Part shown: piece by piece, positions 13,274 to 60,924 of the stretch | Position numbering within the stretch: the stretch's first letter is position 1 | Layout of the letters: every line of letters starts with the position of its first letter | Source of the DNA: Apiotrichum sp. Y4204 | Taxonomy: Eukaryota > Basidiomycota > Tremellomycetes > Trichosporonales > Trichosporonaceae | Direction of reading: 5' to 3' | Length of the DNA stretch: 64,000 bases | NCBI GenBank assembly: GCA_025531455.1 | Contig: JAMYHL010000048.1 | Coordinates: forward strand, 62,001 to 126,000 | The notes under the pieces: model-generated | What the model was told of the DNA's origin: nothing | The model's database searches: none | What the model saw: the letters and a program-made list of their open reading frames with translations, nothing else | Program-made: the position numbers and the translations under genes

Positions 13274-13439
13274 AGTAGAAATAGATATACAGGTTGTAGA
13301 CCGGTTTGCAAGACGAGTTGCGCAACAACCCCCACCCCCGCGGCGCTCGCTAATCTCGCCACACTCATGCCATGCATTTTGGGCTACCTGCGACTAATCC
13401 TTTTTTGTTCTTCCACGCTCCTGCTGTTGCTATGAGGGA

Positions 13440-21374: not shown

Positions 21375-22641
21375 TTCGAGAACACGGAACGAAGGGGGGA
21401 GAGAGGAACGGGGGATCTCGATAAAGTAGAAAGAAACAAGTACGTGTGTGTGCGAGTGCTGTGCCTGCACGTAAGAAGAAAAGTTGTGTGCAGAGTTGCA
21501 GAGATCAGAGAGATCGAGAGAAGGAGAGTGTATTAAATACACGGGCAATGCAGAAAAAGAGCACCGTGATCTGAAAGGTCAAAGGTGAACTCTTGAAGCT
21601 CAAAGCGATGAAGAGAAGTACCTCGATACCTCCAGGGGCTTGCCACTGCATGCACTGCACGCGCTAGGGGGTGGCAACAAACGTGATACCCAGTCCTGTG
21701 TAACAGAGCAGTTAAAAGAGGAGGTTTGTCAGCACAGATGAGGATGCTGACTAGTCATTTTAGAGAAAGTGCAATGTTTTGTTGCATGGCAGCGCGTCAT
21801 AGCCAAAAAAACACGGTGCATCTCATTCATTCATTTCATTTTCCAGTCGCCGGCCGGCAGAGAGAAAAGAGAGGGAACAAGGGCAGAGTCGACAGGACAT
21901 TACCTCTATTTTATTGTTGTTGTTGTTCCAGAGACATGGTGACAAGTCGGAGGAATGCTAAAAGAGCATCGTGATCCCCTGCCCCGTTTCGGATGAGACT
22001 GCCAGCGCGACATCTCGTCGCTTGTCGTCGTGGCATCTCCCTCTCATCACTATCTCGAAACGTCATTCCACCCATTCACCACTGTTGAACTGTTGTTGTT
22101 GTCGTCGTCGTCGCTGCTGCCGCCACCGGCTCCGGAGACCGAAGAGGGCCAAGAGGGATTGAGACCCTGAATAATTCCTGGATAATCCTGATTCCCCCCG
22201 AGCCGGGGAAGAGGATGACGATCCAAGTCGACGTGGAAGGGGGAGAGGTTCTTGAAGACGGCGCAAATCCCGCGCATCCTGCTGATCCTGGTCTCTGATC
22301 CCCCTGTTGATCCTGTTTGGATCTGCAAGCCCAAAAACGTGCAATCGGATCTAGCACACCAGGGGCCACAGAAGAGAGGAGGAGGTTGTACGCCTATTCC
22401 TCTGTCAAATAGTTATCTTATCTCTCCACACACCTATCTGCCAAGCTTTTTATAGGCACTCAGCCTGCAGGCCCCATTTCCCGAATCGACCTCCACTTTC
22501 CTGACAAGAAGGTTAGTCGTCGGCGTGGCATACCTTTTCTCGTCAACAGCTCTCCTACCCCAGCTCCACAAAAGTCTTCAGTCTTCAAGCAAGCGAAGAC
22601 ACGTATCCCATCTCCTCTCCACTCTCCACACCACCACCAGC
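21375..22641. other. Intergenic region between divergent genes
   Basis: This 1267-nt gap lies between the acetyl-CoA transporter (-) and SEC53 (+). A short TTG/GTT-rich run is at about 21912-21927 and a similar GTTGTTGTCGTCGTCG run at 22091-22112. No gene with the coding style of the neighbours is visible. Confidence 0.55.
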
Positions 22642-30927: not shown

Positions 30928-33923
30928 TTACTCGACCAGGAAACCACCGCCCTCGTCGACACTGGTTGTCAGCAAATGTCTTAACATGATTGGTCAGCTA
31001 CTACTCACGCGAGAGTGAGCTTCTGCTCCAGGGTGTCGTAGCTCTTGTAGGCCGGGAGGTCGATACGGTTGAAGCAGGTGTGCGACTTTGGCAGCTGCGT
31101 GATCTCTCCCGCCTTCTCAATGGTGAAGCGACGCGGGCCGTCCGAGCCCTGCAGGTCCTTGAAACCGTTGACAGGGATACGGGATGTGCCGGTGGTGAAC
31201 TGGAGGAGACGGGCCTTGCGCTCCGCAGGCCAGCTGCGCACAATCTTCCAGAACCACTCGACTACCTCGTCCGACGGGTTGTAGCCGCGGTAATCGGTGT
31301 GCTTCTGCCAGTCGTCGACGTCAATCTCCGACATACCACCAATGAGCAGCTCGAGCTCGCGCTCGTCAAACACCGAGATGAGCTCCTGCGGGATCAACTC
31401 GTTGAAGCCCGACATGAATGCCTCAAACTGTTCGGAAACACGGCGCGAGATGCGGTACTCGGTGACGAGGTCGACATAGTCCTTCTTGTTCTCCTCGGTG
31501 ACATCAATGTTCTGGCCGTTCTCCTTGAGGTCGACAGTGACGACCTCACCAAAGTGCTCCTCGGTGATCGAAAAGGTGTCCTCTATGATGTCGGTAATGT
31601 CGTTCTCCAGCATCCACGTAAGACCGCGGTGGAGCGCAGAGTCGACCGACTCGAGGTCGGTGAGGGTAATCTTCTTCTTGAGGATCATCTTGTAGAAGGA
31701 AGAAATAAAGTACGCATCAAGGAAGCGACGGTGGAAGATGCCAAGACCAACGACACGGCCGATAAACTTGAAGTAGTTGAGGTGCTCGGGGTTGACGCCC
31801 GAGTTGGGGTTGATTTGGAGCGTGTAGTTGTCGTGCGCCGAGTACTCGAACAAGCAGTAGAAGGGGTTGAACATTTCGTGCGACAGCAGGAAGAAGAATT
31901 CACGCGACAGACCTCCGTAGTCGAGACCCTCTTCACCCTCAAACTTGACCATGAGACGCTTTTTGAGGTCGTTGGGCGACTGGCGCATAATCTCCGTGTA
32001 CGAGCCCTCAAAGATGTTGTCACGCGAGACCTTGATGTGGCACTGGCCAGTGTTGGAGCGGAGCGCAGGCTGCGAACGGAAGTAGATGAGCTTGCGGCGG
32101 AAGTCGCGCTTGTACTGGGGCACATTCTGGTCGAGCGACGACGGGAGACGGGGGTCGTCCCACGTGGTGGTTTTCGTGTTGTGGTCGACAAAGTACACAC
32201 GCGCTGTTGAAGTAAGACGCATCTCCCAGCCCGAAGGAAGAGGACCAAGCTGAGACACCGTCTGCGGCTGCACCGTCATGCCCGGCTGGTTGGGGGCAAT
32301 GACGCGTAGCAGCTGCTGGCGGCGAGGATCGACCCAAGTGGTCGTCCGTGTGTTGTGGTCCACAAAGTAGGGACGGCCTTCGGGCGTAAAGCGTTGCTCC
32401 CAACCAGATGGCAGGGGGCCGGTACCCACGGTGGTGGCCTGGTTGGTAGGGATGGCCTGGTTGGGCGTCTCGGTGCCAGTCTCAAGCATGTCGTCCGCCA
32501 GGGCACGCTGGGCGTGGCGTGCGCGCGCCTCGCCCGTGGAGTTGGCCTGGACATTGGCATTGGAGGACTGGTCCGTGCTCGGACGGTTCCAAGTGGTGGT
32601 GCGCGTGTTGTGGTCCACATAGTACTGGCGGCCAAGGTGGTCGATACGGCGCTCCCAGCCATTGGGAAGAGGCCCGTGCTGGTCGGTGTGGGAATCAAAG
32701 TTGGTGTTGCTCATCTGGTTGACGTTTGCCGCTGTTGATGCGGCCGTGGCCGTGACAGCGGGGATGTTGTTGCTGCTGTTGTTGTTGGGTGCCTGCGGCA
32801 TGGTGGATGCAGAGGAGGGGTTTATGGGGGAAGCGGCAGCAGTGGTGCTGGCGGTTGCGGTGGATGGTTGAACAACAGGAGAATCACGGTTTGATGTCGC
32901 AGACGAGATGCCCTGTGAAATGCTTTGTGCTGGGCTTTCAGGTTCCGGCGTGTCCGCATTGGTGGCGCGCAGGGCGGCACTAGATGTGTTTACGGATACA
33001 CCAGAGCCATTCGCCGCAGGTGCGATCATGGCATTATTGCCAGGGCCAGGGTTGGTAATAGGCGAGTTGGTCTGTGTGGACAGGTAGATGATGAGCTTGC
33101 CGTTCACAGTGACGTTCTCCGTTCCGCGCCGCAGGTCGCGGGTGAGCATCTCTGAGGCGATGTGAGTCGACTACAGGCGGATGGGAAGCACAGAACACAC
33201 GATCCGTCGTCGGGGCACAGACCCGAACGAGGTACGAGGTTATTGTACTGTTTCACTACGTACCTTGGCCGCCGAGTTCGAGATCGAGGACATCAGACAC
33301 CTTGATGTTGATGACGCCCAGGAAGCCCTGGTCCTGCTGCGTGTGAGCACAGCCATGCTGCGATTATAAACGCACCTTCCTCTTAAACTTGCGCTGGTCA
33401 AAGATCTGGACCGCTACCACGCTCGAGTCTTTTACGGTGCTGAGAATCAGTGACCGGTCACAGCTCTCAATCTCACATGTCAAAGTTCTCATTCCAGTAG
33501 GGGTTGAGGGTGCGCTTGATGACCGAGGTGGTGTGGATCTGCTCGCCGTCGACGCTCACTATCGCGAACGGGTCAGGGAGGCGGAGGATGTCGCGCTTGA
33601 TGAGCGAGTCGGCCGCGACGACTACATGAGCAATACGGAAGCGAGTGGCAAACGATGGCAAACGACGGCGGAGCGGATATCATGTCGGCGAGCGGGAGGA
33701 ACACGAAACGTGGCAGGGGAGAGGTACAAGGGGGGGGACATGGGCAGCGAGAAGCAGAAAATTGGTGGTGCAGCAGTGATCGGGAGCAGGGAGGAGCGCG
33801 TCAGCACAAGAATGGAGGCAGGGGATTGAGCCGGAGCCGAGCCGGCGATGGTGGCAGCGGCAGCCGAAGCGGAGACGTACTGGTGATGCGGATCTTGCGC
33901 GAACTGTTCGGCGACGGCGTCAT
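30928..33923 (-). CDS. RSP5: HECT E3 ubiquitin ligase Rsp5 (NEDD4 family)
   Basis: Six exons on the minus strand, 33923-33881, 33621-33477, 33439-33376, 33333-33264, 33151-31009 and 30961-30928, encode about 832 residues. A C2 domain comes first ([53 protein letters not shown]). It is followed by a Ser/Asn/Thr-rich linker and three WW domains starting [20 protein letters not shown] and [10 protein letters not shown]. The HECT domain fills the last 360 residues, with the catalytic Cys in [14 protein letters not shown] (about residue 800) and the terminal acidic end [10 protein letters not shown]. The family ubiquitinates membrane transporters and other PY-motif clients. A CAGCAG tandem acceptor at 33333/33336 may add one Gln. 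Intron 1 is 259 nt. Confidence 0.95.
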
Positions 33924-39793: not shown

Positions 39794-41841
39794 TCACAAC
39801 AGCGCAATGCTCTCGACCACATGCTCCGACTCGCAGTATCCCAGCACCTGCTCAATGTGCGAGCTGGCGTCAGCTTCGTTTCAACTAAACAACCCACCTT
39901 TTCATCCCCTTGATGCGTTCAATGGCCGCAGAGTTGTACTGCGCAAGGCCTTTTCCAATCTCGACCTCCTCCCACTCATCCTCACCGCCGTCCGCGACGC
40001 TCGCAAACGTGGTGGCCGTCGTCAACCGCTCGCCAAGCGCGTGCATTGCTGGAGATGACGGATCCGTACGTGCAAGCGGGTCGAGCGAGACAACAGAGGA
40101 CGAGAGTGAGAGCGCGGGGTGGATTTGCGGGGTTCCCGGCTGCGGGGCGGTGTCGGGCGACGAGTTGGTCGACGCAATGCCCTCGATCACAATCTGTGCG
40201 CGCACCCTCGCGGCGGGAGATTCTGGGAGGAGGAAGGACGTGTCTTGCAGCGACATATCTGGCGACATCCGCGCTGGAGTCACGGACGCGGATTCCGGGG
40301 ACGTAATCAACGGGGCTGGGGGGAAACGCTTTCGCCTCCGCACAATGATCCGCACAGCCTGGTGCGCGGCGAACGGCCCCTCGACGCGCACAACACCCGC
40401 TGGGAGAAGGCGACCGCCGCTCTCGCGCCGCCCGATCGCCTTGTACGCTCCTTCGTCGATGACCACGGTTCCTGCTGCGTGGAGGCCGTGCGCGATCCAC
40501 CATTTCCGGTCCTTGAGCGCGCGCTGATGCCGCAAGAAGCGCGTGCACAGCGGACCGCTATTCTCAAGCGCGGACACGTCTCCCGCGGAGCGACTCGGAC
40601 CAGGGCCATCCCGCACAATGTCGAAGATGTCGGTCACCTTCTCAGAGTTCAAAATAACGGTCGTGACGCCTGCGGCGGTCGCCAGCTCGGCGGCAATGAT
40701 CTTCGTGGACATGCCGCCCGTGCCGAGGGACGTGCCCATCGTGGATGTCGAGACTGAGGTTAGCGAGAGGAACATGAGGTGCAGAAATAATCTGACGGCC
40801 CGCCGGCAACACCAGCCGGTCACCTGCCGGGTCCTCATCCAGCTCGTGGTCACTCACCCTGTTGCCTGATCATCGAGATATCCCGCACGACGCGCACGGC
40901 CTTGGCTTCGGGATTTACGCGTGGGTTGTCGGTGTACATGCAGTCGACATCTGTCAGAAGGAAGAGGTAATCGGCGTGCACAATCGACGCCGAGATGGCC
41001 GACAGCGTGTCGTTGTCACCGAATTTGATCTCCTGCGGGTGTGAGTGGGGGAGAAGAGAGCGGGAAAACGGTAGTGCGAGCAGCTGGTGGGCGGATGGGG
41101 GAGGGCGGGGTCACCCCTCAGAGCACTGGACATGCGTGCTAGTGACCAGTGACGATTCGGACCCGCTCCGGCATCCGCATCCCATTCCACCTCCCCGATG
41201 AAATCGCAGCACGCACCGAGACGGACACCGTGTCGTTCTCGTTGACGATCGGCACAACGCCCATGTTGAGCAGCTCATTGAACGTGTTTTGTGCGTTGAG
41301 GTATCGCGTGCGCTACTGTCAGCCAAGAGCACTCCCCCACATCTCCGTACATCACTGATATCCGTCCGGGTAAGCAGGATCTGGGCGATGGGCTGGTCCA
41401 CCTGGGTGAAGAGGTTGTCCCAGAGCGCGATCAGCCGCCCCTGTCCGATGGCAGCCAGCGCCTGTTTCCTGCTGAGCCCCTTGCCGCGCTTCTTGAGCCC
41501 CATATGCCTCAGTCCGACGCCGATAGCACCCGAGCTGCACAGCACGACCTTGTGCCCGTGCGCGCGGAGCGCGACGACCGTCTCGACGACCGACGAGAGC
41601 AGCTGCAGCCGCGGCGGAAACGGGAACTTTGGCGCGACGATCGACGAGGTTCCTGCAGGCGTCAGTCATACTTTGTACTTTGGTCGTTCATCGCACCGAG
41701 CTTGATCACAATGGTCAGACTCTGCGTCTTGCGATTCGGATCGGGGCTCGGCGGGCGCGTGACCGGCTGGCTTGCGGTGCCGGACGGAAGCGGCGTCGGG
41801 ACTGGAGGCCTCATCTCGCTCGGCGTGTCTGGTGTGTCCAT
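39794..41841 (-). CDS. PRO1: Glutamate 5-kinase with PUA domain
   Basis: Six exons on the minus strand, 41841-41697, 41652-41351, 41312-41217, 41032-40858, 40753-39898 and 39863-39794, encode 547 residues. The enzyme phosphorylates glutamate with ATP, the first step of proline synthesis. The amino-acid-kinase domain shows [78 protein letters not shown] and [20 protein letters not shown], then [15 protein letters not shown]. The C-terminal PUA domain includes [13 protein letters not shown] poorly conserved insertion of about 90 residues rich in Ser/Pro lies within the C-terminal part. A TATATATATAA element sits about 40 nt upstream of the ATG. Confidence 0.93.
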
Positions 41842-42312
41842 TGTGGAGAAGGGGAGGCCAGGTGGAGGTGGGAGTGTAACTTTATATATATAACGTAGAG
41901 CTGAAAGCGTCGTATCCGAGGAAAGAATGTCTGTTCGCACACGACCGAGAGAGACCCAGAGAGACCGAGTCGAACACACAAAAGAGACAGGTACACAGAC
42001 ACATACGGAGATATGGGAACCGGTCATCCCGACCGATCCACCCGGCCGATAACAAAAAGAGAGAGCTTAAAATGACACGTCATTGATAAAGAAACCAGCA
42101 TGCATGGATGACGGTGGATGACGCCTCTGTCGCGGTCGCTCTTCCCGCGTGTGTGGACGCGGGCGCGGCTACCAAAAGATACCAACTGCCCCAAGATGAA
42201 ACCAGCAAGCCAGAGACCGCACAAATGAACATCGTCGTCGAATATCTCTGTTGTAGCGACATTACACTCCATCCTAACACTAACATCCGCGGACAATCCG
42301 TCTAATATCAAC
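41842..42312. promoter_or_regulatory. Divergent promoter PRO1 / DUF2470-like gene
   Basis: This 471-nt region separates two divergent genes. TTTATATATATAACG at 41881-41895 reads as a TATA box for PRO1 on the minus strand, about 40-50 nt before its ATG. I see no equally clear box for the plus-strand gene. Confidence 0.45.
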
Positions 42313-43447
42313 ATGAACATCAAGGGAGACAAGGAGATGTGCGTTCAGCTCGTTCATATTCTCGAGCTGACAACAGGCATGAGACGATGGAGCTGTTCAA
42401 CACACGGCCAGACTCGCTCACTGGTGGGTAACTCGTCCTGTATTAAACCCACAGTAGATATCTTTTCTCTCTCTGACATCAGCAATTGTCAAGGCCAAGA
42501 CAGACATCAAGGGCCAACTCGGCGACCTGCACATCTTTAGCATTGACGAGGACCACATGGACGTCGCGTACTACCCCCCGCCGAAGGAGGAGCGCACGAC
42601 CGTGCGCATCGACTTCAACCCGCCGCTGAGCAGCATGTACGATGCCAAGCCGCGCCTGCGCGCGTGGCGCGATGCGATTTATGCGCGCTGGAACGTGGTA
42701 CGTATACTGCAGAGGATGGAGCGTGCTGAAGAATGCGTTTATTGAGCACCGCACATACCCCATCCTCTCAAGGCACATGATGCTGATGCTAATGACAGCC
42801 CGATCGCCCGACAGTGTACTACTACACCTTCCCTCCGGCATGGCCGTACACCGTCCCTGTTGCGATCCTCGTCGCCGCCCTCCTCTTCACCCTCTACGCG
42901 CCGGGGCGCTTGGCCGACTGGTCCCGCGAGCTCGTTGCGAAGTACTGCGGCGTCGGCTTCCTCAAGTACGCGAGCTGGTTTGCCGCTGCCATGGTGAGTA
43001 ATAGGATACTATGGGAGGGGATGGTGCGCGGTTTAGGGCTAAGCCAATCGATCGTCCTTAGCCGTTGTAGTTGCCGTGATAGTGGATTGTCCACCTACCC
43101 TTTCATCCGCTCACACGCAGCACTTTGTCATTGAGCCGATCTTCCTGCTCTTCCTCACCCAGAGGCACAAGACGCCTTTCGTCCCGCGCGTAAAGTGGAT
43201 TCTCACCAACATGGCCCTCGGGTACCCCGCGCTCGACCACTTCCGGGAATGCGGTGAGTCTGAGGGGAAACGGGGGTGGCTACGTGGAAGGGCATAAGCC
43301 AGGACCCCATGTCCTCCACCTTGACTCAGCCTCACGCTGACTCCAGTCATGTACGAGCGTCTCCGCGTCATCTACCGCAACACGGACGTCGGCGAGATTC
43401 CGGCCAAGGCTCCCGACGCAGATCTCAAGGCGAAGAAGAGCGAGTAG
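42313..43447 (+). CDS. DUF2470-like membrane protein
   Basis: Six exons, 42313-42338, 42377-42423, 42483-42697, 42799-42993, 43121-43253 and 43347-43447, encode 238 residues. The soluble N-terminal part (MNIKGDKEMHETMELFNTRP to FNPPLSSMYDAKPRLRAWRD) has the layout of the DUF2470 domain of fungal membrane proteins. Two hydrophobic stretches follow, TVPVAILVAALLFTLYAPG and SWFAAAMHFVIEPIFLLFL, then a conserved-looking RHKTPFVPRVKWILTNM and a basic end. Function is not established. The domain call is by pattern and moderately sure. The exon chain keeps phase throughout, including the 26-nt first exon. Confidence 0.7.
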
Positions 43448-44377
43448 TGGGGCAGGCACGATGTATTTCTTGTCTTGATATTGAGAAGCTGGAGTTCGAT
43501 ATGCCGCGTTTCCTGGGATCTGTTTGACTGTTCTGACTTGACTGACCACTCAACGCGCTGACAAGTGTCCATTGGCAATCGAAAGGCCGGCGGCGACTCG
43601 AATGAGAAACTGTATCCTATCCAACCGGATCCGACCCGACAGAGGTTTGCGACCTGAAAACTCTCGAAATTTTGGGCTCAGAGAATAGGTAGTTGAGGTT
43701 TCACCAACTGCCCGTTCGATCCGTCAAGGGTTTGGCTGAACAGCCTGGTAGAATCGCGAATTTGGATTTTACTTTTTGCCCCCTACTCTCACTATCTCTG
43801 AATTTTCGCTGCTTCTGCTTTCTGTTATAGCCATTTTCTCGCTCGTAATATTCCTACAGTATTCTCAGCGCCGAATTTTGCTGGAGCTGGAGCAGAGTGA
43901 CGCAAGATCATGTTTTCCTCTTGAGTTGTCGAGCGGGCAAAGGGCGGTCGGTAGTGGTCTCGTAGAACCGAACGTCACATTGCGCGTGATACTCTAGTGT
44001 TTCGACCATGGTTGCGACGAGTCTCCCCTCTTCCCCATGCACCTGTTTTTTTTTTTCTCTTCTTTTGCCAATGATGTGGGACCTATTCTGAGGACAGAAG
44101 AGGAGCGAGAGGAGTCCCAGACGCGGGCAGACGTCTACCTGCCTGCAGTCTACCTGCCTGCAGCTGCCTGACAATTGCGGTGTCTCAACAGATACGGTTT
44201 GATCTCATTAAAATGCGGGGTCCCCAGATCGCAATCTCGGATCCGACTTCCAACTCGATGGGTCAAAGATCAAGATCTCTGCAGCTCGCACTTGGCGTCG
44301 CACTTCATCCCATATATATCTATATAGGAAGCCTGCATCTCTACGCCGTACCCCCACTGACACACCGAGCACTAACG
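43448..44377. other. Intergenic region upstream of the RNA-repair gene
   Basis: This 930-nt gap carries a tandem CTACCTGCCTGCAGT-type duplication at about 44137-44163 and a T-run at 44047-44057. ATATATATCTATATA at 44311-44325 lies 52-67 nt before the next ATG and is a likely TATA element. No gene is supported. Confidence 0.5.
44311..44325 (+). promoter_or_regulatory. TATA-like element of the RNA-repair gene
   Basis: ATATATATCTATATA stands out in an otherwise GC-rich stretch, 52-67 nt upstream of the ATG at 44378. Confidence 0.4.
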
Positions 44378-46892
44378 ATGCATCTCGACGCCTCATCCCT
44401 AACGCTGGGGGAGTATCGTGGCGGGCTGGCGCTCCTCGGCCCGGCCATCACCGCCGCCGTGGAGCACTTCGCCCCCAGAAACGACCTACCCTACCCCGCA
44501 CACATTACGCTTCTGAGCGCCGCGGAGCGGCGCGCCCTCGAGAAATCCGGGAAGAAAATCAACCCAGAATCAATCACTATCCCCACCGCACACGTCTACG
44601 TGCTCGGCTGCGCGGCGCGCAAGCGCGTGAGCTGGCTGGTCGTGCTGTGGAACCACGCCGACGTCTTCCGAGCCGCTCACGGCCTCGGGCGGAAAGACTA
44701 CCACATTACGCTGAGCGATACGGACGACCATGCGTGCGATAAGAGCATCGACGCGCTCCCGCTCGCGTCCAGCGACATTGTCCGCCGTGTCGCGGAGATG
44801 AGTGAGGCCGCGATCGACCACGCGTTCGTCGCATCGCGCAACGACGAGACCGTGAGATGAACCACACCCACCGCGCTGACCCTAGAAATACCTCCTCGCT
44901 ATTCGTCTTATTAACAACTATCAAGACTCGTATCGCGGGTATGCGCGCCTCGCGTCCATTTCCGAGCCGAAGATTGCGTGCCTCGCATACGCGCGCGCTG
45001 CGGCGCTCAACCCCGCCCTCCTCCCCGTTGCCGCAGCGCAGATCGGTAAGCTCCGCGACGCCGCGTCCTACGGCCCCGTCGTGACCGCCGATGAGCGGAA
45101 GTGCATCCCCTGTGCCGGACTCGAGTTTCCGTGGCCGGAGGAGCTGCACGCCCTCGTCGGCGGGCTGTGGACGCACGCTATCGCCTCGCGTGAGCGGCAG
45201 ATCTTCGGTGGCGTCGAGCTCCCCCGCTTCTTCTCGTGGCTGTATCCCGGCCGCATCGCCGCAATGTCCACTCCGCGCAACGCGGGCGACATCGACACCC
45301 TCGCCGCCATGGGGATCACGCACGTGCTGAGCCTCACCGCCGAATCGCCCCTCGACCCCGCGTGGTTTGCCTTTCGTGCCGAACACGTATTTGTCCCGGT
45401 TCCAAACTATGCCGCTCCGACGCTCGCGGAGATGGACGCGATCTTTGCGCGTGTCACCGCCGGCGGATCGTGGCTCGTGCATTGTGGCGGCGGCGTCGGG
45501 CGCGCGGGTACCGTTCTCGCATGTCTCGTTGCGATGCTCGGCTACGAAGGCGAGGAGCAGGCGGAGCCGCGGCTCGATGCGCGGACAGCGATCGCGCTCG
45601 TCCGCGCCGCCCGGCCCCGTAGCCTTGAGACGGAGGCACAGGAGCGCTTTGTCGCTACCTGGGTATCCCACAGGTGGAAGCGGCACACCGAGGTGGCGGA
45701 GCCGTACGCGCCGCTGCGCGTCGAGGGCACAGTCCGTACCCCCGACGACGTCCAGGCCGTCATGCTCGTCGGGCGGCCAGGAAGCGGCAAGTCGTGGCTT
45801 GCAGGCGCGATATCCAAGCGCCGGCCCACACAGGTGATAAGCCAGGATGAGAGCGGCTCCCGCGCGGCGTGCGAGACGCACGCGTCCCGCGTCCCCCGCA
45901 ACACACTCGCCGTGCTGGATAGATGTAATCCGACAGCTGCGGACCGGAAGCGCTGGCTCGCGCTCCTCGACCGCCCGTGCGTCGCCGTGTACTTTGACTA
46001 CAGCGCAGAGCTGTGTTCGCAGCGGATCAACACCCGCCTCGACCACCCGACCCTGCGGGCCGGCCGCGGGGCCCGCGCGCTGGAGCAGATGGACCGCGAG
46101 ATGGAGCCGCCGACACTAGGCGAGGGCTTCTCTGCCGTGCTCACCATCCCGTCCTTCCCTGCTGCGCGCGAGACCGTACGCCGCCTAGCGGCCGACCCGC
46201 CCCTGCTCAAGTTTCCGCGCACGCCGCACCTTTTCGACCTGGGCGCCGCGTCGGCCGACGACGTTGTCGCCTCGCGGGAGGCGCTGAGCGGCCACCTGAC
46301 CGTCGAGGAGAAGATTGACGGTGCAAACCTCGGCATCAGCGTAGGGTGGGACGGGGAGCTGCGCGCCCAGAATAGGAGCCACTGGGTGAGTTCGGCGGAC
46401 CACGCGCAGTTCCGTCCGCTCGGCACATGGCTCGCGACACACGACGCGCAGCTCCGCCGCCTCCTCGCCCACGACCCCCAGTTTCCAGAGCGGTATATCC
46501 TGTATGGCGAGTGGGTCGTCGCGCGGCACTCGATCCACTACTCTTCTCTGCCGTCGCGGTTTGTCGCGTTCGATCTGTACGACCGTGTGACGGATGTGTT
46601 TCTCTCGCATGCGGCGCTCGCGCGCGCCCTCCACGACACGGGTATCTGTCAGGTCCCGCTGATAGCTCGGCCCGCGACGCTGTCGCGCGCGGAGATCCTG
46701 CGCTTTCTCGAGCGAAAGAGTATGTGGAGCGACTCGTGCATCGAGGGCGTGTACATTCGCGTCGAGGACGAAGAGCGTGCCACCACGCTCAGGCGGTACA
46801 AGGTCGTCCGGGGCGACTTTATCGCTGGCAACGAGCACTGGGCGAGGGGCCCGCTCGTCCTCAATGGCATCACAAGAGGCCCAGATACGTGA
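44378..46892 (+). CDS. Four-domain RNA repair protein: 2H phosphoesterase, Cys phosphatase, polynucleotide kinase, RNA ligase
   Basis: Two exons, 44378-44851 and 44886-46892, separated by a 34-nt intron, encode 826 residues. Domain 1 (about 1-190) has paired 2H phosphoesterase motifs, PAHITLLS (His42, Thr44) and DYHITLS (His109, Thr111). Domain 2 (about 240-430) is a DUSP-like cysteine phosphatase: FSWLYPGRIAAMSTPRN and the P-loop HCGGGVGRAGT (Cys358, Arg364). The usual general-acid Asp position holds Asn332 in VPVPNYAAPT. Domain 3 (about 445-600) has Walker A GRPGSGKS (454-461), SQDESGSR and LDRCNPTAADRKRW, typical of polynucleotide kinases. Domain 4 has ligase motif I EKIDGAN (Lys634), YGEWV, FVAFDLYD, CIEGVYIR and YKVVR, as in Rnl2-type RNA ligases. 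Together these could trim, phosphorylate and seal broken RNA. The role in the cell is inferred. Confidence 0.9.
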
Positions 46893-49266
46893 AGCGGATC
46901 GAGAGCGGAAATCGATGTGGCACCGCACATGTCAAGTACTAGCTGGACCTGACGGAGGCACGGCTGTTCCTTGTTGCGTTCCTCGGCGTCGTCGACGACG
47001 ACGGCGCCCCCTCACCGGAACTCGTACTGGAATCCCCCCGGCTCCGGAGGTACACAACAACGTCAACAGCGCCGGTAAAGTGACCTCGGAGAACAGCTAC
47101 GACAAGTCTACGCCAGCGCTATGCAGTTCCCCAGCCACAGTTCTCAATCTCCGGGATGTTCTACTTTGTTCTTGTTGTTTAGCCCATTTTTCCTGTTAAT
47201 TATCACTTCTGATTAATGGACAACTCTAACCCCCTCGCATACCAAACTCAATCTTGCCCCATCATGGTCACCAGGGCGCGGACCTGTCATTCAACTACTA
47301 AACGCATCGCCCAGTCCGGAGGAATGTCTCGCCGAGTTAACAACCGACGTGGATCTCGGCGACGCATTTCCTATCGACCCACTGACGGTAACTCCAAAAC
47401 AATAGGATCCTCTCGGATGTACCGATGGCGGCGAATAGAGCGGGTACAATCTGCAGCCGTTCAATCTGCAGCTCGGCGCATGCGACCCGCGACAGTACTA
47501 CACATGTCGATCACCAGGTGCACCATTCAAGTCTTCCAGTCCGATGCGACGCTGCCGCTCCCGATCTGAGTTCAGGAAGCTCCAGACTCGAGGGGACGCG
47601 AGGCTCTGACGGCGAGGCCTGGAGTTCCGAGGATCAATTCCCAGCGCCGCGGGGAGGAAGGTGACAACCCGTACCAGACACTGGAAATGACAAAACGGCT
47701 GGGTGAAGGGGACCGGGAGCGACCCAGCACTGCGGGAGGTGGCGCCGGCGTCACGCCAGCCCCGAGTAGTCTGCGCGTGAAGCTTGTTTGCAGCAGCTGC
47801 GAACCTTATTGCCGCGAGACGAAGGAGACTTTGCTTGTGGATCGGTGGAGACCCTTTGCTACAAGAGGATCGATGTGTTGCCAGTGCGAGCGGGAGTCTA
47901 TGAGATCCTTGAAGTTGACTTGCTGGAGGGACACCGGACGGTGCATTGGCGCACAACGCGTCCTGAGTCGGGGTAGGTCGACCACTGTGGATCTCCCCGC
48001 TGTCCTGTCGAGGCACTCCATGGTGGACGGGTGCAAAGCTCCGAGATGCCCTCCTTGGTGACAAATTCACGAGTCACGGTGCAGACAAGGTTTAGTGCGT
48101 TTGTTAGGGTTTGGGTTGGGTGCGTTCCAGAGCGCTGGGTGGTGGCATGGATAATGGCTCCGTGAGGGAGATGGGGTCGGTGAGAGAGGATGCTGTGTGA
48201 GTTGTTGCCAGGACCGTGAGTCTGCGCAAGGACTCGATCGTTATGCCGGCAACGGGCCAACTGATGTGCCCGTCTTGTGCCAGTCCAGGCAACAGTTACT
48301 GGGCCCAAATTTGGTGGTCAGCGTGGCCGTTGCGGCATGCACAGTGCGATCCAATGCAGTGAGATGCGGTGAGTGACACAACAACACGACTGCTAGTCGA
48401 AGACAGGCACTTGCGCAGCGGTACGGTCTGGCAGTATGCACTGGTGTCGTTACCGTTCATTATCACCGTCTGTGCGCCACATCTTGAAACGGACCCATCA
48501 GACGTCAGGAGTTTGCGGAGTCGGCAAGTGGCCTCTTTCTCGTATGTAGGTGTCGTGAACCCCCTCACGGCACGAAACCTTTTACGACGGAAGCGACGGA
48601 ACGCACAGGGGATGGCAGGGATAGAGGTCTGGATCGGTGTCACTGCAGTGAGATGACCGAGGTGGAGCTGGCCAGAGCCAAGTTTTAATTGCGAAACTCG
48701 TGTGGGACGTAACCCCGACTATAATCAGCTCAGGCGCTCAGGGGGGGTTTTTTTTTTTTTTTCTTTTTTTTCCTTCTTTTTTTTTTCTGTTTAGGAATAC
48801 CACGGTAATTATAAGCAGGGGCTCATGTGGTGGCCAGGAGTGCCCAACACGTAGATCAGTAGAAGATGACCGCCCAAAAGGGTGTGCCCCGATGCAGCTG
48901 ACGGCATGGAAATGAGCTGGGTGACATCTGTCGTGCCCAATGTGGATGGCATCGACCCTCCGACAGCTCAGGACTGCTGGACCGCAGCCCCTCGGCGAGG
49001 CCGAGGGGGCGATTGCTTCAACTCGTAACAGGCACGGTCGCAACAGGCCCACACTGGCCAGCAACAGGTCCAGCATGTACGAGAGTACTACAACTCTATT
49101 CTCGAACAGGAGTGCATGGATGCCTGCCATCTGGAGGTATTTTTGTGAGGAGCATGAGTAGACGACCTGGAGACGGAGACCGACAAGTCTGTCGAGCTTG
49201 TTCTATAATAGCAGCGACGCACAATCGGGGGATCTCTCCTCCGACCATTCCACTCCACCATCACCC
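46893..49266. other. Gene-poor region
   Basis: This 2.4 kb stretch follows the RNA-repair gene. Open frames of up to 190 codons occur on both strands, but none has splice structure, a recognisable motif or neighbour-like codon use. A G7 run runs into a T-rich tract at 48741-48786. I see nothing else. Confidence 0.5.
48741..48786. repeat. G7 followed by poly(T)-rich tract
   Basis: Seven G are followed directly by about 39 nt that are T except for a few C. It may be a poly(A) relic of a minus-strand retro-insertion, a nucleosome-free element or a replication-slippage tract. No flanking target-site duplication was recognised by eye. Confidence 0.8.
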
Positions 49267-51273
49267 ATGCAGCAGCCACAACAGAACAGTCCGCACCGCC
49301 CAAGACCCAGCGGTGCCGCCGGCAGCGCCCCGCGCAAGCCCGACATCTCCGCCAACGCCGCCGCTAGCAGTAGCAGCAGCAGCAGCAGACCGAGAGTGTG
49401 CATCAGCACGAGTCCGCCCCCGGCCCCGCCGCGCCGCCCGAGTTCGCCACTTCCCCGTCCCCCGCGGCCATCCTGGCGCACGCCGCACGAGGCGCCACAG
49501 GTGCCCCCGCTTCCGCCCGCGTCGCCATTGACGATCCCGACAGTCGGATCCGACGCCGACAGCGAGGAGAGCGCCTACGTCACGGCGCAGAGCACGCAGA
49601 GCACGCGGAGCACGCGGAGTACAGCCAGCCTCAGCGTGGCGAGCATGGCAAGCATGGGAAGCGACGAGTGTATGCCGAGTGGTGGGCACACGCGTAGTCT
49701 GAGTCTCGGCCCGGCGCGGGGACGCGCCGCAAAGTCCCGCCTACGCGCCGCCGGCGAGTTCAACCTCGCTGACCTCCGCCGCGCATGTCCGTCCCCTTCG
49801 GGACTGCGATACTCCCACCCTCCCCCGCCGCCGCTCTCCGCGTCCAGCTCGCCGTCATCCGCGTCCTCCAACACCGCCACGCCGGCAGACCCCGCGGCGC
49901 ACCCCGCCGTCCTTCCCTCCCCGCCACGCCCGCCGAGCCCGCCCGGAGGTCTCCCCTGGTTTGCGCAGGGATACCAGCAGAAGATGTCCAGCACGGGCCC
50001 GCTGCCGCCGCGGGAGGCGGACGGGAGTAAAAGTGAAGTGATCGGACTGCCGTGGTTCGCGCAGGGATACCAGGGGGCGCTGGCGAACTCGACTGTCGAT
50101 CCAGCGCCGGCCGGGGCGTCCCCACCGCCGTGGCTCGCGGAGGCGGCGGAAGCGGCACAGAAGTTGGCTGAGTCCGAGACCCCGCCCGTGAAGCACACGG
50201 TTCAGGGCGACGGCCCAACAGGGGAGCCCACGGGCGAGGCAAAGGACGATCCGCGCGACCTGCCGTGGTTTGCGGAGGGGTACCAGCAGAGCATGCAGAA
50301 GCCACCGGGGCGGCGGCGAACGCTCAAGAAGCCGGCCAAGACCGCGACGGGGCTGCATCTCGAGCTGGAGGAAACGAGTGAGTGTGGGACGAGTGGAGTC
50401 ATGATGACCATATGGATAGCTGCCTTTTGGAGTTTGCTGGAGAGAACGGGGCCCAAAAGCTCTGGGAAAGAGTCTCCCTCACTACACAAGTTCCCAGCTC
50501 ACACCAGAATATGTTCCCGTCGAGGAAGGCCGGCAGTCCGGCCGCGAACGCATCTTTGACGCGAACAAGACTCTGTGCGAACGGACCGGCCACGACATTT
50601 TTGCCCGCGCGCGCCCGCGCGACATATTCTCGCCAGTTGGATGGGGGTGAGTGCGAGTGTTAGATGGTGACAAGGCGAGGAATACCGGATGGCGAGTGGC
50701 ACTGCCACAGGTGTGCAGCATTCCCCGGCGTCGCGCCATGGTCATTCAGATGTTGACTCCAGTGCGACGGGCGCCAAGTGTCGTCGGTGCGGCGGGCATT
50801 TCAAGGGCGCCCCGATGCCCCGCGCGCCGCCCGAGTTCATCCCGGAGGAGCCGCCAATCGAGGTCTGGACGCCGGTCTCGCCCGTGTCGATTGTCTCGAG
50901 TGCGTCGTCGACCAGGTCGCCCCGCGCCCTCTCGAGCTTTCCGGCGGGATCGGGGACGATGAAGAGCACCATGTCTGGTTCGTCGCGCGAATCGCGTACG
51001 TCCAGGTCGTCTCGGGCATCACATGCGTCGCGGGCATCGCACGTGTCGCATATCTCCCACGGATCGCACGCATCACAGGCATCACAGGCATCGCACGCGT
51101 CGCATACCTCATCGTACACCTCGCACGATTCGGGCGAATCGGCATTGACGCACACCTCTGGGCTCGAGGCGTCACCAGGCGGGCGGGGCCCGCCACCGGC
51201 GCCGTCGTCGTCGTCGCGTCTGGCGGGCGTGTTCAAGGTCGGACGGCGACGGGCGCCACTCGCCAGTATGTGA
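49267..51273 (+). CDS. Disordered protein with repeated LPWFA(Q/E)GYQ motifs
   Basis: Three exons, 49267-50377, 50508-50646 and 50763-51273, encode 586 residues. The N-terminal half is Pro/Ser-rich. The motif GLPWFAQGYQ occurs twice, PPWLAE once and DLPWFAEGYQ once, between about residues 235 and 345. Exon 2 encodes an ordered-looking YVPVEEGRQSGRERIFD and RTGHDIFARARPRDIFSP. Exon 3 opens with AKCRRCGGHFKG, a possible half zinc site, and then an array of SHxS repeats (ASHASRASHVSHISHGSHAS). Junctions were chosen because only ACACCAG at 50507 and GACTCCAG at 50762 keep the good coding frame, and other acceptors remain possible. I do not recognise the family. The repeats could be short linear motifs that bind a partner several times. 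Confidence 0.65.
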
Positions 51274-55692: not shown

Positions 55693-57822
55693 ATTCCCAG
55701 GATACCCAGGTTCAGCGAGATGAAACCGCAAGATCCCATGCGCAGTTACATAGTACACGACGTGACGCGACAAGTTTAGTCTCGGTATCTTACACGCAGC
55801 CTACTGGCCACAAGGCTTTCTCGGTCTCGCCAAAAACGGCCGTTCCCAACATCTGGGACGCGGCGCATCAGCACGATCACTCGCCCGTTGGGGGTGGCCG
55901 ATGCCGAAAGACAAAGTGTAAATTTTTGGATTTTCGTTTGCAGCTCTCGCTCCTTCGTTTTGCCCCATTATTTGGGTGTGGGTGTGCTGGTGGTGCTGGG
56001 TGGCGGCCTTGGCCGGTCAGTGTCTGGAAGGACGTGTGCCAGCCTGACGCCACTGGTATCAGCGGCACTGGGCCCAGATTTGCCTTGATGAGACCTTGCA
56101 GAGGCGGAAAGGAGGAGGAGCGGAGACACCCATATCTGGCTGTAATGCTCGCTCTCCCTGAGCTGTTGCAGCCGCAACCCAGCCCTTGCGCCTTCTTGAG
56201 CAGAACGGCAAGAGTGCGGCAGTGGCTGCGCGGCCGAAGTCTTTGGGGAGTGGAATGACGCCGGCAGGGCCCGGATTACCCTGGGCTGTACTGGCTGACG
56301 CATCACGGCTCTACTGGCCTGCTGGGTGAAGAAGAAAACCTGCAGCTCTGCCCAATTGACACTTACGCACGCCGCCTCTCTCCTCTCTAGCCTCTGGGCC
56401 TCTGGGCCTGCTCTCTCTGTATGCAGAACACAGGGGCACAAGCGGGGGTGGGAATGCCGCTATGTGTGATGCATGTCGTAATGCACACACTGCGCCCAAC
56501 AGATTTGCTGCATTTGCTGGGCACCACCAGCACCACCAGCAGCAAGCAGACCAGCGCCCGCAGTCCGGGGCCTGTGGTTCCTGTAGAACATGAAATGATG
56601 TGATGCACAATGCCGCACTACTGCTCATCTGCCTTGTACTGTACTTCTGTCTTTTTCTGTTCACCGTCGCCGCTAGCTCTCTCCCTTGCCCCCCCCAGTA
56701 TCCCAGTCCCGATTAACCCCCCATTGTTCTTGCCCTCTCGTGCCCGTCTTGTACCACCCCCCCATCTCGCTCGTATCCTCTGTCCGCCGTCCGCTGTATC
56801 TTCCTACCCCCTGCCCCCCCCCCACTTCCCCATCCGCTGTCGCCACGATTCCAGATCCGAGACCGATCAGCGATTCAGAGACAACTCAATCGCCAGGTCG
56901 CAAGCCGTAGTCGCCATACCACCCCAGGACCTCACCGATCCTCGTCGTTGTCTCGCAAACTTTTCTCGATTTCCCAGCTCTTCTCACGGTTCTTTGCTGC
57001 GGGAACACGAGCTACACACTAGACCCCACACTGGTCGGTAGACAGCACTCTAGCAAACGCCTCGAGGCAGCGGGAATAAGCCCCGCTCGTCCACACTTGA
57101 TTCTCCGCACGACACATTCTCTATCGCGATCACCATCACCGACATCCCGCGCCCTGCTGTTCACTCTTCTCTCTCCATCACGCCCGTCCAACAGGCACTC
57201 TACAGGCTTGGCCCCAGTCAACCAGCCCCCCAACGCGTTTCTACATTCCTGCCCATAAGGACCATCACGCTTCGAGAGCGCGCCGGTATCCCATCAGTTG
57301 GCCCCTTGAATGACCTCGTGACCAAGCCAGCCGTCTTCTCCTCTACCTCGCCGCCGCCTCCCAGCGCCTCTCCGGGTTTCATTTGCATATCCCCTCTCAC
57401 ACATCCTTCTGCATTCTTGGATCTTGGGAAAACAAGCGGTACGTACTGTTTGCGGAAGGACGGCAGGCGTCCGGCCCCCATCACGCCCAGCAAAGAACCC
57501 AGAGGGCGTGCACCCCCCGCACTCACCTGACTCTTGGGCGCGCCTTGCCTTGCCTACCCCCCCACTCGCCCCCTCCCTTTCATCCTCATTTAACTGCATA
57601 CCTCGTCCTGTCTGTTGGGCCTCGTCCTGGACGAAGCTCGTAGTCACGGCATCCTTTCATTCCACAACTGTGCTCCCAAACACTTGGTATATAGCATACC
57701 GTGCTGGGCACTTTGTGGTCCGACTCCCCATCCTTCTATTCCCACGGCGTTCTCGTCGCTGGTCTATCCTTGTCCACACCTCTACCTCTCCCCGCCACAA
57801 CCCACGAGGTCCCCTTGCTAAC

Positions 57823-60800
57823 ATGCCGTATGCAGCCCCCGACCCGTCGCCGTCTCTTGTGCCACCACCGTTCTTCACGGCCTACCCCACTCCGCCTCCC
57901 TCCCCCCTCTCCGGCCTGTGTACGCTCGAGGCCGTCTTCTGGTCCGAGTCTGTCGCCACGACGCAAGCCTCCGCACCTCGCTCGGCGGATCCCCTCCTCG
58001 CCGCTGTCGAGTCGCTTCCGCCGCGAGTGAACCGCTCAAAGTTCCAATCGCAGCCCCCACCACACCGTCCCAGTGCGCTACGCCTTTGTCGTCCACGGGG
58101 CATCCTTGCGGTTCTAGGTGGTGTGCGCGTTCTCAGCATCAACACGACCAGTGTCCTCGACAGAATGCCCTACGCAGCAGTCAAGATCGGTGCGTCGGCT
58201 GATACCGACGTAGTCGACGCCCTCCTCGCGTCAGAGAAGCGGGAGCAGCGCGCTGCGGCCCTCATCGCCAAGCAGACATCAGACGATTCTCCATCATCCC
58301 AGCACGCCGCCGCCATCGCCGCGGAGGCCGTCCGTATCGGTACCGGTGTTCTCTCCCTTCGCAGGGCCCAGTCCGAGTCTACAGTTCACCAGCTTTCCTC
58401 GTCCAAAACAATGGTTCCCACCGTCGCGTTGCCCACCGTTTCTGAATCAGCGAACTCTTCATCCTCCATCCTGATCCAGCCCCCGACCCCAGTTGAACAG
58501 CCGGTGCCGGCACCTGGCCCTTCCACCCCACCAGGTCGCTCACTACCTACGTCGCCTTCTGCCGACCCTTCCACCCCGACCAGCAGCACCAGCCGCACCC
58601 CCCGTCCGCCTCCGCGCCTCACGTCGCGCTCCCCGCGCAGTGGCAGTGTTACCCCTAATGTCCTCCCCGAGGTTCGCTCTCCCCGCCGCACCACCGAGAC
58701 CCTCCAGACCCGTCGGTCACGTCGCCCGCGTCTATTCGGCTTCACCGGTCTTGTTGATGATGCCTCTTCCACCACCAGCTCGGCTGCCAGCTCCCCCAAG
58801 GGCCCGCTCTCGCCGACAGAGTCGACAACGCAGATGCTTCCCCGTCGCTCTCCCTCCCGCACGCGGAGTGAGACCTCGCTGGCAAACCTCCCTCTACTCT
58901 CTGCCACTGTCGTTGCCCCTCGCTCGGCGAGCCATCCGCAGCCAATGGTCATCCCAACTGCCACTGCCACTGTTCCAACTGCCACATCCCCATTGATCCA
59001 CATCTCCCCCACACACACGGCCGCTCCGTTCCGCGAAACCGGCCTCAAGCTCGACCTCGGTAACATTGTGCCTCAGCCCAACCCGGACCTCCCCCTCAAC
59101 GCTGGCATCGTCCATTCCCCGTTCCACAGCGTTATTAAGAAGAAGAGCGGCGAGATTGTAAAGTCGGCGCTCAAGTACAGCGGACCACTTCTCGAGAACG
59201 GCACTCCTCGCGAAGAGAAGCCGAACCGTTTTGCCGGCTCGCGCTCCTGTCCCACGACGCCGAGCTGCCCCAAATATGTTCACTTCGACGCCCAGCTCGA
59301 GCGCATCAAACTCTTCCTTCAGGACCAGAAGCCCCAGGTCGTCTCGCTCCAAGGCTCGCCGACTGATATGAGCGAGGACGAGGACGAGCCGGAGAAGAAA
59401 CTTACTGTTCGCCTCCCTAACTTCCCCACGTCGCTAGACTACGACTCGAACCTCTTCATCGAGTCGCTGTACCTTAACGAGGATCGGGATGCGCTCCGCG
59501 GAATGGTCCGCGTGAAGAACTTTTCGTTCGAGAAATGGGTTGCCGTGCGCTTCACCTTTGACTGGTGGCAGACCACTTCCGAGGTCACGGCCACATACAA
59601 GGAGAGCATCCGTGGCGGCGCCTACGACCGCTTCCAGTTTACTATCAAGCTTCACGACCTCCTTGACCGTATCGAGGAGAAGTCGCTCTTCCTCTGTGTG
59701 CGATACAACACCGACGGCCAGGAGTTCTGGGACTCGAACGGCAACTCCAACTACACGGTCTTGTTTGAGCGCAAGGCTGAGGAGACCCGCAAGTTTGTTC
59801 CCAAGCGCTCGCGCGGCTCTCCGGCTCCGGGTATGGGCCGCTCGGTCAACCGCAATGGTAGTCCCTGGAGCGTCAAGGGCGCCGACGCCGACCGTATGGC
59901 CGACCTGCGCGCCAAGCTCAACCGCCTCACTGCCGAGGACAACGAGCTCAGCAAGCCGCTTGCTTCCGTCAAGCGCTCGCCTCGTCCTACCCATCTTCGC
60001 CTGCCTACCAACGACGGTATGAGCTCGCTCTCCGGCCGTTACGACTTTGGCTCCGCCCTCAAGTCGTCGCCCCAGCCCGCGAAGCGAGAGTTCTCCGGCT
60101 TCTACTCGCCTCGTCCTGGCTTTGGCCTTCCGGTGTCCCCCAACGGCACTGGGTCGCCTAACGGTCTGTCGCCCAACCCCGGGTCGCCCTTCCCGCCGTC
60201 TCCCCTGCCTGGTCCTCCATCGCCGCTTCCCCCGGCACTCACCTTTGCGAGCACCAACAGCTCGTCGACAGTGTCTCTCGATTCAGTGGCCGCTACGCCT
60301 GCCGACTCGCCTTCGCTGCTCCTCAGCCGCGAGCTCGACGATGTAACCCCCTCGGACACTACCGACTCGCCCAACTCGTCGGCGTCATCTACCGTCTCCC
60401 CTTCGCCGAGCGACTCGCCCATGTCCCCTACCAGCGTTTTCCCCTGGTCGCCCCACAGCGGCAAGGACCGCAGCGCTGATGACATGAGCCTCGCGAGCTA
60501 CTCGAGCTTTATCGAGCAGTTCTGCTGGGCTGGCGGTGAAGACTTCCGTCCCGGGGTTCGCCGTATCCACTCGACCTCGTCGTTGGACCACCTCAGCACC
60601 ACCTCGTTTGACCTCGCGTCCCCACCGGACATGCTCACCCCGCGTGCGTACACTCCCACACCGACGCACGGCCTCAGCCGAAGCGCAAGCACGAATGGTA
60701 CCGCGTCGACGATCTCTGGCACCAGCACGAGTACTGCTTCGGTGACCACCCCCAACGGAACGCGCCGCGCCTCGCCTCCTACTCGTGAGGATCTCGAGCA

Positions 60801-60924
60801 CGTCGACAACGCAATCCGCTCCCTCTCCAATTCTCTTGCCAGCACAGCCGTCTCTGGTAGCCCTCACACTACTCCGCCCCATACGCCTATGATGCGTCCT
60901 TCGGGCTCTGTCCTCGCTCTCTAG
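57823..60924 (+). CDS. Protein phosphatase 1 targeting subunit with CBM21 domain (Gac1-like)
   Basis: A single open frame encodes 1033 residues from the ATG at 57823. The N-terminal half is Ser/Pro/Thr-rich. The PP1-docking RVxF-type motif is KYVHFDAQLE (Val486, Phe488). It is followed at about residues 540-660 by a CBM21 carbohydrate-binding domain: FIESLYLNEDRDALRGMVRV, KNFSFEKWVAVRFTFDWW, and LFLCVRYNTDGQEFWDSNGN. The C-terminal 350 residues are Ser/Pro-rich and disordered. Known role of the family: bringing the Glc7/PP1 phosphatase to glycogen to activate glycogen synthase. The start is unsure: MPYAA occurs both at 57823 and, in frame, at 58165 (MPYAAVKIGAS), and the segment between looks less conserved. 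The long leader upstream could contain an intron. Confidence 0.88.
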   Translation: MPYAAPDPSPSLVPPPFFTAYPTPPPSPLSGLCTLEAVFWSESVATTQASAPRSADPLLAAVESLPPRVNRSKFQSQPPPHRPSALRLCRPRGILAVLGGVRVLSINTTSVLDRMPYAAVKIGASADTDVVDALLASEKREQRAAALIAKQTSDDSPSSQHAAAIAAEAVRIGTGVLSLRRAQSESTVHQLSSSKTMVPTVALPTVSESANSSSSILIQPPTPVEQPVPAPGPSTPPGRSLPTSPSADPSTPTSSTSRTPRPPPRLTSRSPRSGSVTPNVLPEVRSPRRTTETLQTRRSRRPRLFGFTGLVDDASSTTSSAASSPKGPLSPTESTTQMLPRRSPSRTRSETSLANLPLLSATVVAPRSASHPQPMVIPTATATVPTATSPLIHISPTHTAAPFRETGLKLDLGNIVPQPNPDLPLNAGIVHSPFHSVIKKKSGEIVKSALKYSGPLLENGTPREEKPNRFAGSRSCPTTPSCPKYVHFDAQLERIKLFLQDQKPQVVSLQGSPTDMSEDEDEPEKKLTVRLPNFPTSLDYDSNLFIESLYLNEDRDALRGMVRVKNFSFEKWVAVRFTFDWWQTTSEVTATYKESIRGGAYDRFQFTIKLHDLLDRIEEKSLFLCVRYNTDGQEFWDSNGNSNYTVLFERKAEETRKFVPKRSRGSPAPGMGRSVNRNGSPWSVKGADADRMADLRAKLNRLTAEDNELSKPLASVKRSPRPTHLRLPTNDGMSSLSGRYDFGSALKSSPQPAKREFSGFYSPRPGFGLPVSPNGTGSPNGLSPNPGSPFPPSPLPGPPSPLPPALTFASTNSSSTVSLDSVAATPADSPSLLLSRELDDVTPSDTTDSPNSSASSTVSPSPSDSPMSPTSVFPWSPHSGKDRSADDMSLASYSSFIEQFCWAGGEDFRPGVRRIHSTSSLDHLSTTSFDLASPPDMLTPRAYTPTPTHGLSRSASTNGTASTISGTSTSTASVTTPNGTRRASPPTREDLEHVDNAIRSLSNSLASTAVSGSPHTTPPHTPMMRPSGSVLAL

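Follow-up and report, generated by a model that had tools for sequence, protein, structure and literature searches.

A two-exon gene of Apiotrichum sp. Y4204 encodes a predicted RNA repair protein of the Swiss Army Knife family with an altered phosphatase active site

We analyzed a stretch of 64,000 nucleotides from the basidiomycete Apiotrichum sp. Y4204 (the window; positions 62,001 to 126,000 of contig JAMYHL010000048.1, assembly GCA_025531455.1). A gene at 44378-46892 on the plus strand is predicted to encode a protein that carries, from N to C terminus, a 2H phosphoesterase, a Cys-x5-Arg phosphatase, a polynucleotide kinase and an Rnl2-type ligase. This four-domain architecture is already known, under the Pfam family name "Swiss Army Knife" (SAK). 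Judging from the domain content, we consider it likely, with some reserve, that this single 826-residue protein repairs ribonuclease-cut RNA: it would heal the two ends first and seal them afterwards, leaving no 2'-phosphate. The point added by our analysis lies in the phosphatase, where two residues expected in such an active site are replaced. The features of the gene, in window coordinates, are as follows.

44378-44851, plus strand: exon 1, with the N-terminal 2H phosphoesterase domain, residues 1-158 (Pfam 2H-SAK PF22547; AlphaFold model; intron boundary shared with the copy on contig C145)
44501-44509, plus strand: 2H motif 1, H42-I-T44
44702-44710, plus strand: 2H motif 2, H109-I-T111
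44852-44885, plus strand: predicted 34-nt intron, GTGAGA...CTGAC...TAG
44886-46892, plus strand: exon 2, with helical linker, phosphatase, kinase and ligase (AlphaFold model)
44886-45065, plus strand: helical linker of four helices (residues 2-11, 16-25, 28-41 and 43-55 of the exon-2 model)
45222-45653, plus strand: Cys-based phosphatase domain (PTP-SAK) with the VHZ/DUSP23 fold
45405-45407, plus strand: N332, which takes the position of the general-acid Asp (D65 of VHZ; phmmer alignment to DUSP23)
45480-45506, plus strand: phosphatase P-loop, H357-C358-x5-R364-A365, with Ala for the usual Ser/Thr (from conservation among the aligned sequences)
45627-45629, plus strand: E406 of the Q-loop, candidate sole acid/base (aligned with VHZ E134)
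45759-46169, plus strand: polynucleotide-kinase domain, with P-loop G454-S461 (45771-45794), D479, D503-RCN and R542 (Pfam AAA_33)
46296-46808, plus strand: Rnl2-type RNA ligase core, with K634 (46311-46313), R655, E700, F720-D721, E778 and R795-x-K797 (Pfam RNA_ligase; Foldseek)

In our model of the SAK gene, exon 1 (44378-44851) supplies 158 codons and exon 2 (44886-46892) supplies 668 codons, at 44886-46889, followed by the stop; the exons are read in different frames and would yield a spliced product of 826 residues. The first-pass annotation had described one 826-residue frame; the length holds, whereas a single frame is ruled out, the two exons being joined across a 34-nt GT...AG stretch. 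Besides its GT and AG ends, this stretch contains a branch-like CTGAC site. A homeologous copy of the gene on contig C145 aligns without a gap over 2,515 bases, 2409 of them identical, and in that copy the GT, CTGAC and AG are unchanged, with differences at other bases of the stretch. Since these three elements are kept, and since the joined protein aligns at the splice junction without a gap to protein P0003 of Vanrija pseudolonga, we read the stretch as a predicted intron. On the minus strand, an open frame of 446 amino acids (44706-46046) overlaps the gene; it is probably a by-product of GC-rich codons (GC content at third codon positions, 0.81).

All four domains were found by Pfam above the respective cut-offs: 2H-SAK at 3.6e-13 (50.3 bits, cut-off 27, residues 36-118), the protein tyrosine phosphatase (PTP) domain PTP-SAK at 9.3e-49 (165.8 bits, cut-off 27), AAA_33 at 2.6e-11 and RNA_ligase at 2.2e-29, a set of matches that does not arise by chance. 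Within exon 2, the kinase family PF13671 was placed at residues 292-409 and the ligase family PF09414 at 471-641. The same four domains were found in 55/55 homologues of an alignment whose members were chosen as full-length; both family models (PF22547 and PF22784), with kinase and ligase behind them, are thus shared, and the window protein shows no architectural difference from other SAK proteins. The first-pass annotation had read from the letters the motifs of a 2H enzyme, a phosphatase loop, a kinase and a ligase, in the order cyclic phosphodiesterase (CPDase)-like, phosphatase, kinase, Rnl2-like ligase. The motifs are all present, from H42-x-T44 through R795-x-K797, the profiles confirm the order, and the Rnl2-like character of the ligase is borne out by PF09414 and by a Foldseek match to T4 Rnl2. 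Failure of profile searches to place a domain had been named beforehand as a possible refutation, and four of four were placed over the cut-off. The fusion itself is not new, Pfam having already modelled 2H-SAK and PTP-SAK. Burroughs and Aravind reportedly described the SAK family in 2016. In the literature available to us, our search found no paper on SAK proteins, and none of the texts consulted described an experiment on a SAK protein.

Fold searches agree with these assignments for the phosphatase, kinase and ligase. The 2H part (44378-44830) was modelled by AlphaFold with a predicted local distance difference test score (pLDDT) of 92.8, and exon 2 with a pLDDT of 92.3 and a predicted template modelling score of 0.89. 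The two H-x-T/S motifs that define the 2H superfamily are represented by H42-I-T44 and H109-I-T111. By fold, the phosphatase matched VHZ, the kinase matched 5'-OH kinases of Mucorales and mammals, and the ligase matched the Naegleria RNA ligase (6vt0, 5.9e-7) and T4 Rnl2 (2hvr, 9.3e-7). For the kinase, the match to PDB entry 9d8a was also seen with phmmer (6.8e-19) and with a profile (6.2e-32), in addition to Foldseek (1e-9), and the motif D503-R-C-N-P507 is present. Used alone as a sequence query against the PDB, the ligase gave no credible match, the matches coming from the fold search. Its motif I reads K634-x-D-G and its motif V R-x-K; together with PF09414, the motifs I, Ia, III, IIIa, IV and V characteristic of the Rnl2 family are all found. 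The linker that separates the 2H domain from the phosphatase looks, by eye, like tetratricopeptide repeats (TPR). No Pfam family matched it at E <= 1, so a TPR identity is not adopted and the likeness is kept as a visual impression.

The catalytic residues were then surveyed in 166 sequences, comprising the window protein, the C145 copy and 164 homologues from two search listings, short ones included; counts below 166 take only the sequences with a letter at the position. In the kinase, K460, D479 and R542 were found in 166/166 and D503 in 165/166. In the ligase, K634 and R655 were likewise invariant (166/166), E700 was present in 164/164, D721 in 163/164, and E778, R795 and K797 in 163/163. 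The 2H domain was less constant, with His in 122/129 at position 42 and in 124/133 at position 109. Three homologues (P0122, P0145 and P0150) have lost both 2H histidines and retain the phosphatase Cys and the kinase and ligase Lys, which suggests that the 2H step is dispensable in places.

The phosphatase presented a different picture. It has the VHZ fold and the H-C-x5-R nucleophile loop of VHZ-type enzymes, with C358 and R364 each conserved in 165/165. In VHZ (DUSP23), however, the acid loop contains an Asp and a Thr follows the P-loop Arg, whereas the window protein has N332 and A365 at these places. The Asn was found in 162/164 homologous sequences (Asp in the other 2) and the Ala in 164/165 (Thr in 1); the two changes occur together in 161/164, and are thus common to nearly all homologues examined. 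The Glu of the Q-loop (E406) was present in 166/166. A likeness to the PRL (PTP4A) phosphatases is seen in the Ala after the P-loop Arg, which published work ties to slow phosphocysteine hydrolysis; PRLs, however, keep the acid-loop Asp, which is replaced by Asn332 in the SAK protein, where the Q-loop Glu is retained.

The replacements were compared with controls. Of 28 bacterial genomes in which a related ligase occurs, 16 gave PTP-SAK matches, 34 in all, of which 30 were read. After the C-x5-R, the next letter was T in 17, S in 6, G in 6 and unreadable in 1, with Ala in none of the 29 readable cases, all of them distant relatives and some of them near copies of each other. The general-acid position, read by eye, was Asp in 23/29 and otherwise K, S, A, N, H and A; these six non-Asp loops come from low-scoring matches, save L112 and L113. 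When the PTP domain alone was used as query, eight proteins were returned, seven of which were 55-61% identical with the same Asn and Ala and are likely to be pieces of SAK proteins. The eighth, P0174, is a standalone relative of 184 residues (35% identical) with an Ala after the P-loop Arg and an Asp-containing acid loop. The Ala by itself is therefore no signature of SAK, being found in P0174 and in PRLs as well; among the sequences examined, the Asn and Ala pair was seen solely in SAK proteins or in what are probably pieces of them. An ordinary phosphatase of the same genome reads HCKAGKSRS, its acid loop containing an Asp.

Work on related phosphatases gives these changes a possible meaning. 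In VHZ, the role of primary general acid falls to Glu134, with Asp65 subservient to it (PMC9038691); in archaeal-type relatives, PMC12848742 suggests the Q-loop Glu as a backup, and reports that kcat in Asp-to-Asn variants falls from 4.7 to 0.01 per second for TkPTP and, for ShufPTP, from 8.6 to 0.12 per second. According to PMC12192612 (see also PMC6192704), the P-loop Ala of PRLs lets phosphocysteine persist for over an hour, and when both the Asp and the Ser/Thr are absent the phosphocysteine is stable for weeks. An Asp at the general-acid position may not be tolerated in a PTP whose ligands have highly charged ends, an argument made for an inositol-pyrophosphate phosphatase (PMC9038691). 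Because the SAK phosphatase combines the Asn and the Ala with a kept Glu, and in view of the VHZ and PRL papers, we infer that Glu406 may serve as the acid/base and that phosphocysteine would turn over slowly, so that the phosphatase step would be slow or occur once per repair. The step thus likely works in an unusual, slower way.

The genome (48.9 Mb in 182 contigs) holds two SAK copies whose proteins are 96% identical. The copies lie in a longer homeologous region, window positions 40874-50402 aligning with positions 176500-186000 of C145 at 91% identity (alignment of about 9.7 kb). Two loci with Trl1 domains were found on contigs C36 and C105, in the order PF09511 ligase, PF08303 kinase, PF08302 CPDase, with partial and broken PF08303 matches (55 of 168 positions on C36); Tpt1 (PF01885) also has two loci. 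Since the SAK locus, Trl1 and Tpt1 each occur at two loci, the genome is likely doubled or hybrid. The only PF09414 ligases found in it are the two SAK copies. Between these, the ratio of non-synonymous to synonymous substitution rates (dN/dS) is 0.17 overall, with 0.31 for the 2H domain, 0.04 for PTP, 0.10 for the kinase, 0.17 for the ligase and, from few changes, 0.43 for the linker; the phosphatase thus has the lowest value of the four domains. Both copies are open and under purifying selection, which rules out a pseudogene and makes it likely that both are functional.

Fungal Trl1 also carries a CPDase, a kinase and a ligase in one chain and joins ends with a cyclic phosphate and a 5'-OH. 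Trl1, however, is ordered ligase-kinase-CPDase, has a PF09511 ligase and no phosphatase, and leaves a 2'-phosphate for Tpt1; the SAK protein differs in order, ligase family and phosphatase, and would differ in the scar, and none of the Trl1 families PF09511, PF08303 and PF08302 matched it at E <= 1. The genome has both systems. The first-pass annotation had set the gene apart from Trl1, and the two separate Trl1 loci agree with this and rule out a variant or replacement of Trl1. With two Trl1 and two Tpt1 loci in the genome, we conclude that the SAK route is extra to Trl1/Tpt1 and does not replace it. The parts themselves have other relatives. The ligase shares the nucleotidyltransferase fold and motifs I to V with T4 Rnl2 and the Naegleria gruberi RNA ligase; the SAK core is instead fused behind three healing domains, and its chain ends soon past motif V, a length that would leave no room for a full C-terminal domain. 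The kinase shares its fold and P-loop with the Mucorales enzymes 9d8a and 9drz, mammalian PNKP and the kinase of bacterial Pnkp, and the QD and DRCN blocks are also common to the 9d8a and 9drz alignments. We know of none of these kinases being fused to a 2H domain, a PTP and an Rnl2-type ligase in the SAK order.

From the kinship of the domains, a four-step pathway can be proposed. The 2H domain would open a 2',3'-cyclic phosphate to a monoester, and the phosphatase would move that phosphate onto Cys358, leaving a 2',3'-diol. The kinase, using a nucleoside triphosphate, would phosphorylate the 5'-OH; the ligase, adenylated at Lys634, would activate the resulting 5'-phosphate and join it to the 3'-OH. 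Sealing by an Rnl2-type ligase after removal of the phosphate would give a plain 3'-5' bond, and Tpt1 would be unneeded because, unlike in the Trl1 route, the phosphate is gone before sealing. Such a set of activities would fit the ends made by metal-independent ribonucleases, a 2',3'-cyclic phosphate and a 5'-OH. Since the fungus also keeps Trl1 and Tpt1, it is likely that the SAK protein acts on damaged RNA and not in tRNA splicing.

The altered phosphatase leaves room for another reading, which we regard as unlikely: a near-dead Cys-x5-Arg domain may act as a sensor of phosphate ends or as an RNA clamp, binding a 2'- or 3'-phosphate or carrying a stable phosphocysteine and so gating the ligase; removal of the phosphate would then fall to another enzyme. 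The near-universal loss of the general-acid Asp and of the P-loop Ser/Thr speaks for it, as do the PRLs, which with such an Ala behave as pseudo-phosphatases that hold phosphocysteine (PMC12192612). The invariant Cys, Arg and Q-loop Glu argue the other way, as does the low dN/dS of the domain, and with a separate phosphatase the fusion itself would seem pointless. Bolder still, and at least as doubtful, is the idea that the double-loss phosphatase captures the phosphate of the RNA end as a long-lived phosphocysteine, cleared solely via Glu406 or passed to another acceptor, so that the capture serves as a switch, thrown once in each repair, that permits the kinase and ligase of the same chain to act, the whole kit having spread sideways from fungi to mosses and bdelloid rotifers as protection from RNA-cutting toxins.

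The remaining alternatives concern the substrate. A backup or variant ligase for tRNA splicing or HAC1-type splicing, with the job and substrates of Trl1, would share the same end chemistry and would coexist with Trl1 as observed; we hold this to be improbable, given that splicing is already served by Trl1 and Tpt1 at two loci each, and that the spread of the family (one named moss and one named bdelloid among the matches listed) is unlike that of a housekeeping splicing enzyme. We consider very improbable a reading in which the substrate of the phosphatase is a 5'-triphosphate end, a cap-related end or a protein, so that the SAK protein would join 5'-processed transcripts and not RNA cut by nucleases. 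Cys-based RNA 5'-triphosphatases do exist, and among human proteins of known structure the nearest relative, DUSP23, is named a dual-specificity protein phosphatase. The 5'-OH kinase and the 2H domain in the same chain, however, indicate 5'-OH and cyclic-phosphate ends, and the general DSPc model, which presumably also covers the Cys-based RNA triphosphatases, matched under the cut-off (E 0.049). Repair of ribonuclease-cut RNA with both ends healed thus remains the reading that we prefer.

A family search over 5.8 billion proteins returned 545 relatives (120 listed), and a second search with a moss protein as query returned 419 (120 listed). Among the listed matches that bear organism names, all are from fungi, which by their names we take to be Basidiomycota and some Ascomycota, except for two: P0043, from the moss Ceratodon purpureus, and P0141, from the bdelloid Adineta ricciae and returned by the second search. 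The checked catalytic residues are in place in both, and the moss gene lies on a 16-Mb contig. We built a tree of 51 chosen sequences with midpoint rooting, which does not give directions of transfer. The window protein groups with two Vanrija species (100/98), a placement that fits a yeast of the Trichosporonales. The moss protein falls in a clade of nine (100/100), with P0036-P0038, P0040, P0041, P0045, P0049 and P0053; P0141 pairs with one sequence (100/100) beside 13 sequences, mostly of Agaricomycetes; and P0073 of the tremellomycete Kwoniella dejecticola lies within the Agaricomycetes (99/97), apart from other tremellomycetes. These placements suggest that the family has spread sideways, with an old transfer between fungi and mosses being possible and P0073 possibly reflecting a transfer between fungi. 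A bacterial origin of the whole fusion was rejected: in the best 80 of 542 bacterial relatives, ranked by best match, which was nearly always the ligase, 0/80 loci had a 2H or PTP match to the family profiles and 1/80 (L027) had a kinase match, a weak one (E 7e-4); given that ranking, a bacterial fusion may exist outside this set. At another locus, L067, tblastn covered residues 296-660, without confirmation by the kinase profile.

Given the moss and bdelloid homologues, one may ask whether the SAK kit belongs to the acquired RNA ligases whose expression in bdelloids is induced when fungi attack. In bdelloids, acquired RNA ligases rank with the genes that a fungal pathogen induces most strongly, and defence against ribotoxins is suggested; the desiccation response shows no enrichment of the same ligases (PMC11258130). 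After radiation, too, acquired RNA ligases rise (PMC10809525). Against such a link, the induced ligases find their top BLAST matches in bacteria or phage (PMC11258130), and in neither paper does the text consulted name the SAK family among them.

Among the 16 window frames of at least 330 amino acids, 10 were scanned with Pfam, and no link between the SAK gene and the other scanned frames was seen. The matches were as follows.

2389-4059, plus strand: DEAD-box helicase
13430-14848, minus strand: homoserine dehydrogenase
15050-16099, plus strand: Nup133-like nucleoporin
19084-21548, minus strand: acetyl-CoA transporter, in two frames
31005-33149, minus strand: HECT ubiquitin ligase with WW domains
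57424-60924, plus strand: CBM21 protein

To our knowledge, baker's yeast has no RNA damage-repair route of the kind proposed here. If our reading is true, many mushrooms and yeasts would own a dedicated and scarless one beside their tRNA-splicing ligase. With two textbook phosphatase residues replaced and one Glu strictly kept, the SAK family would also provide a sharp and inexpensive test of how Cys-based phosphatases work on RNA ends.
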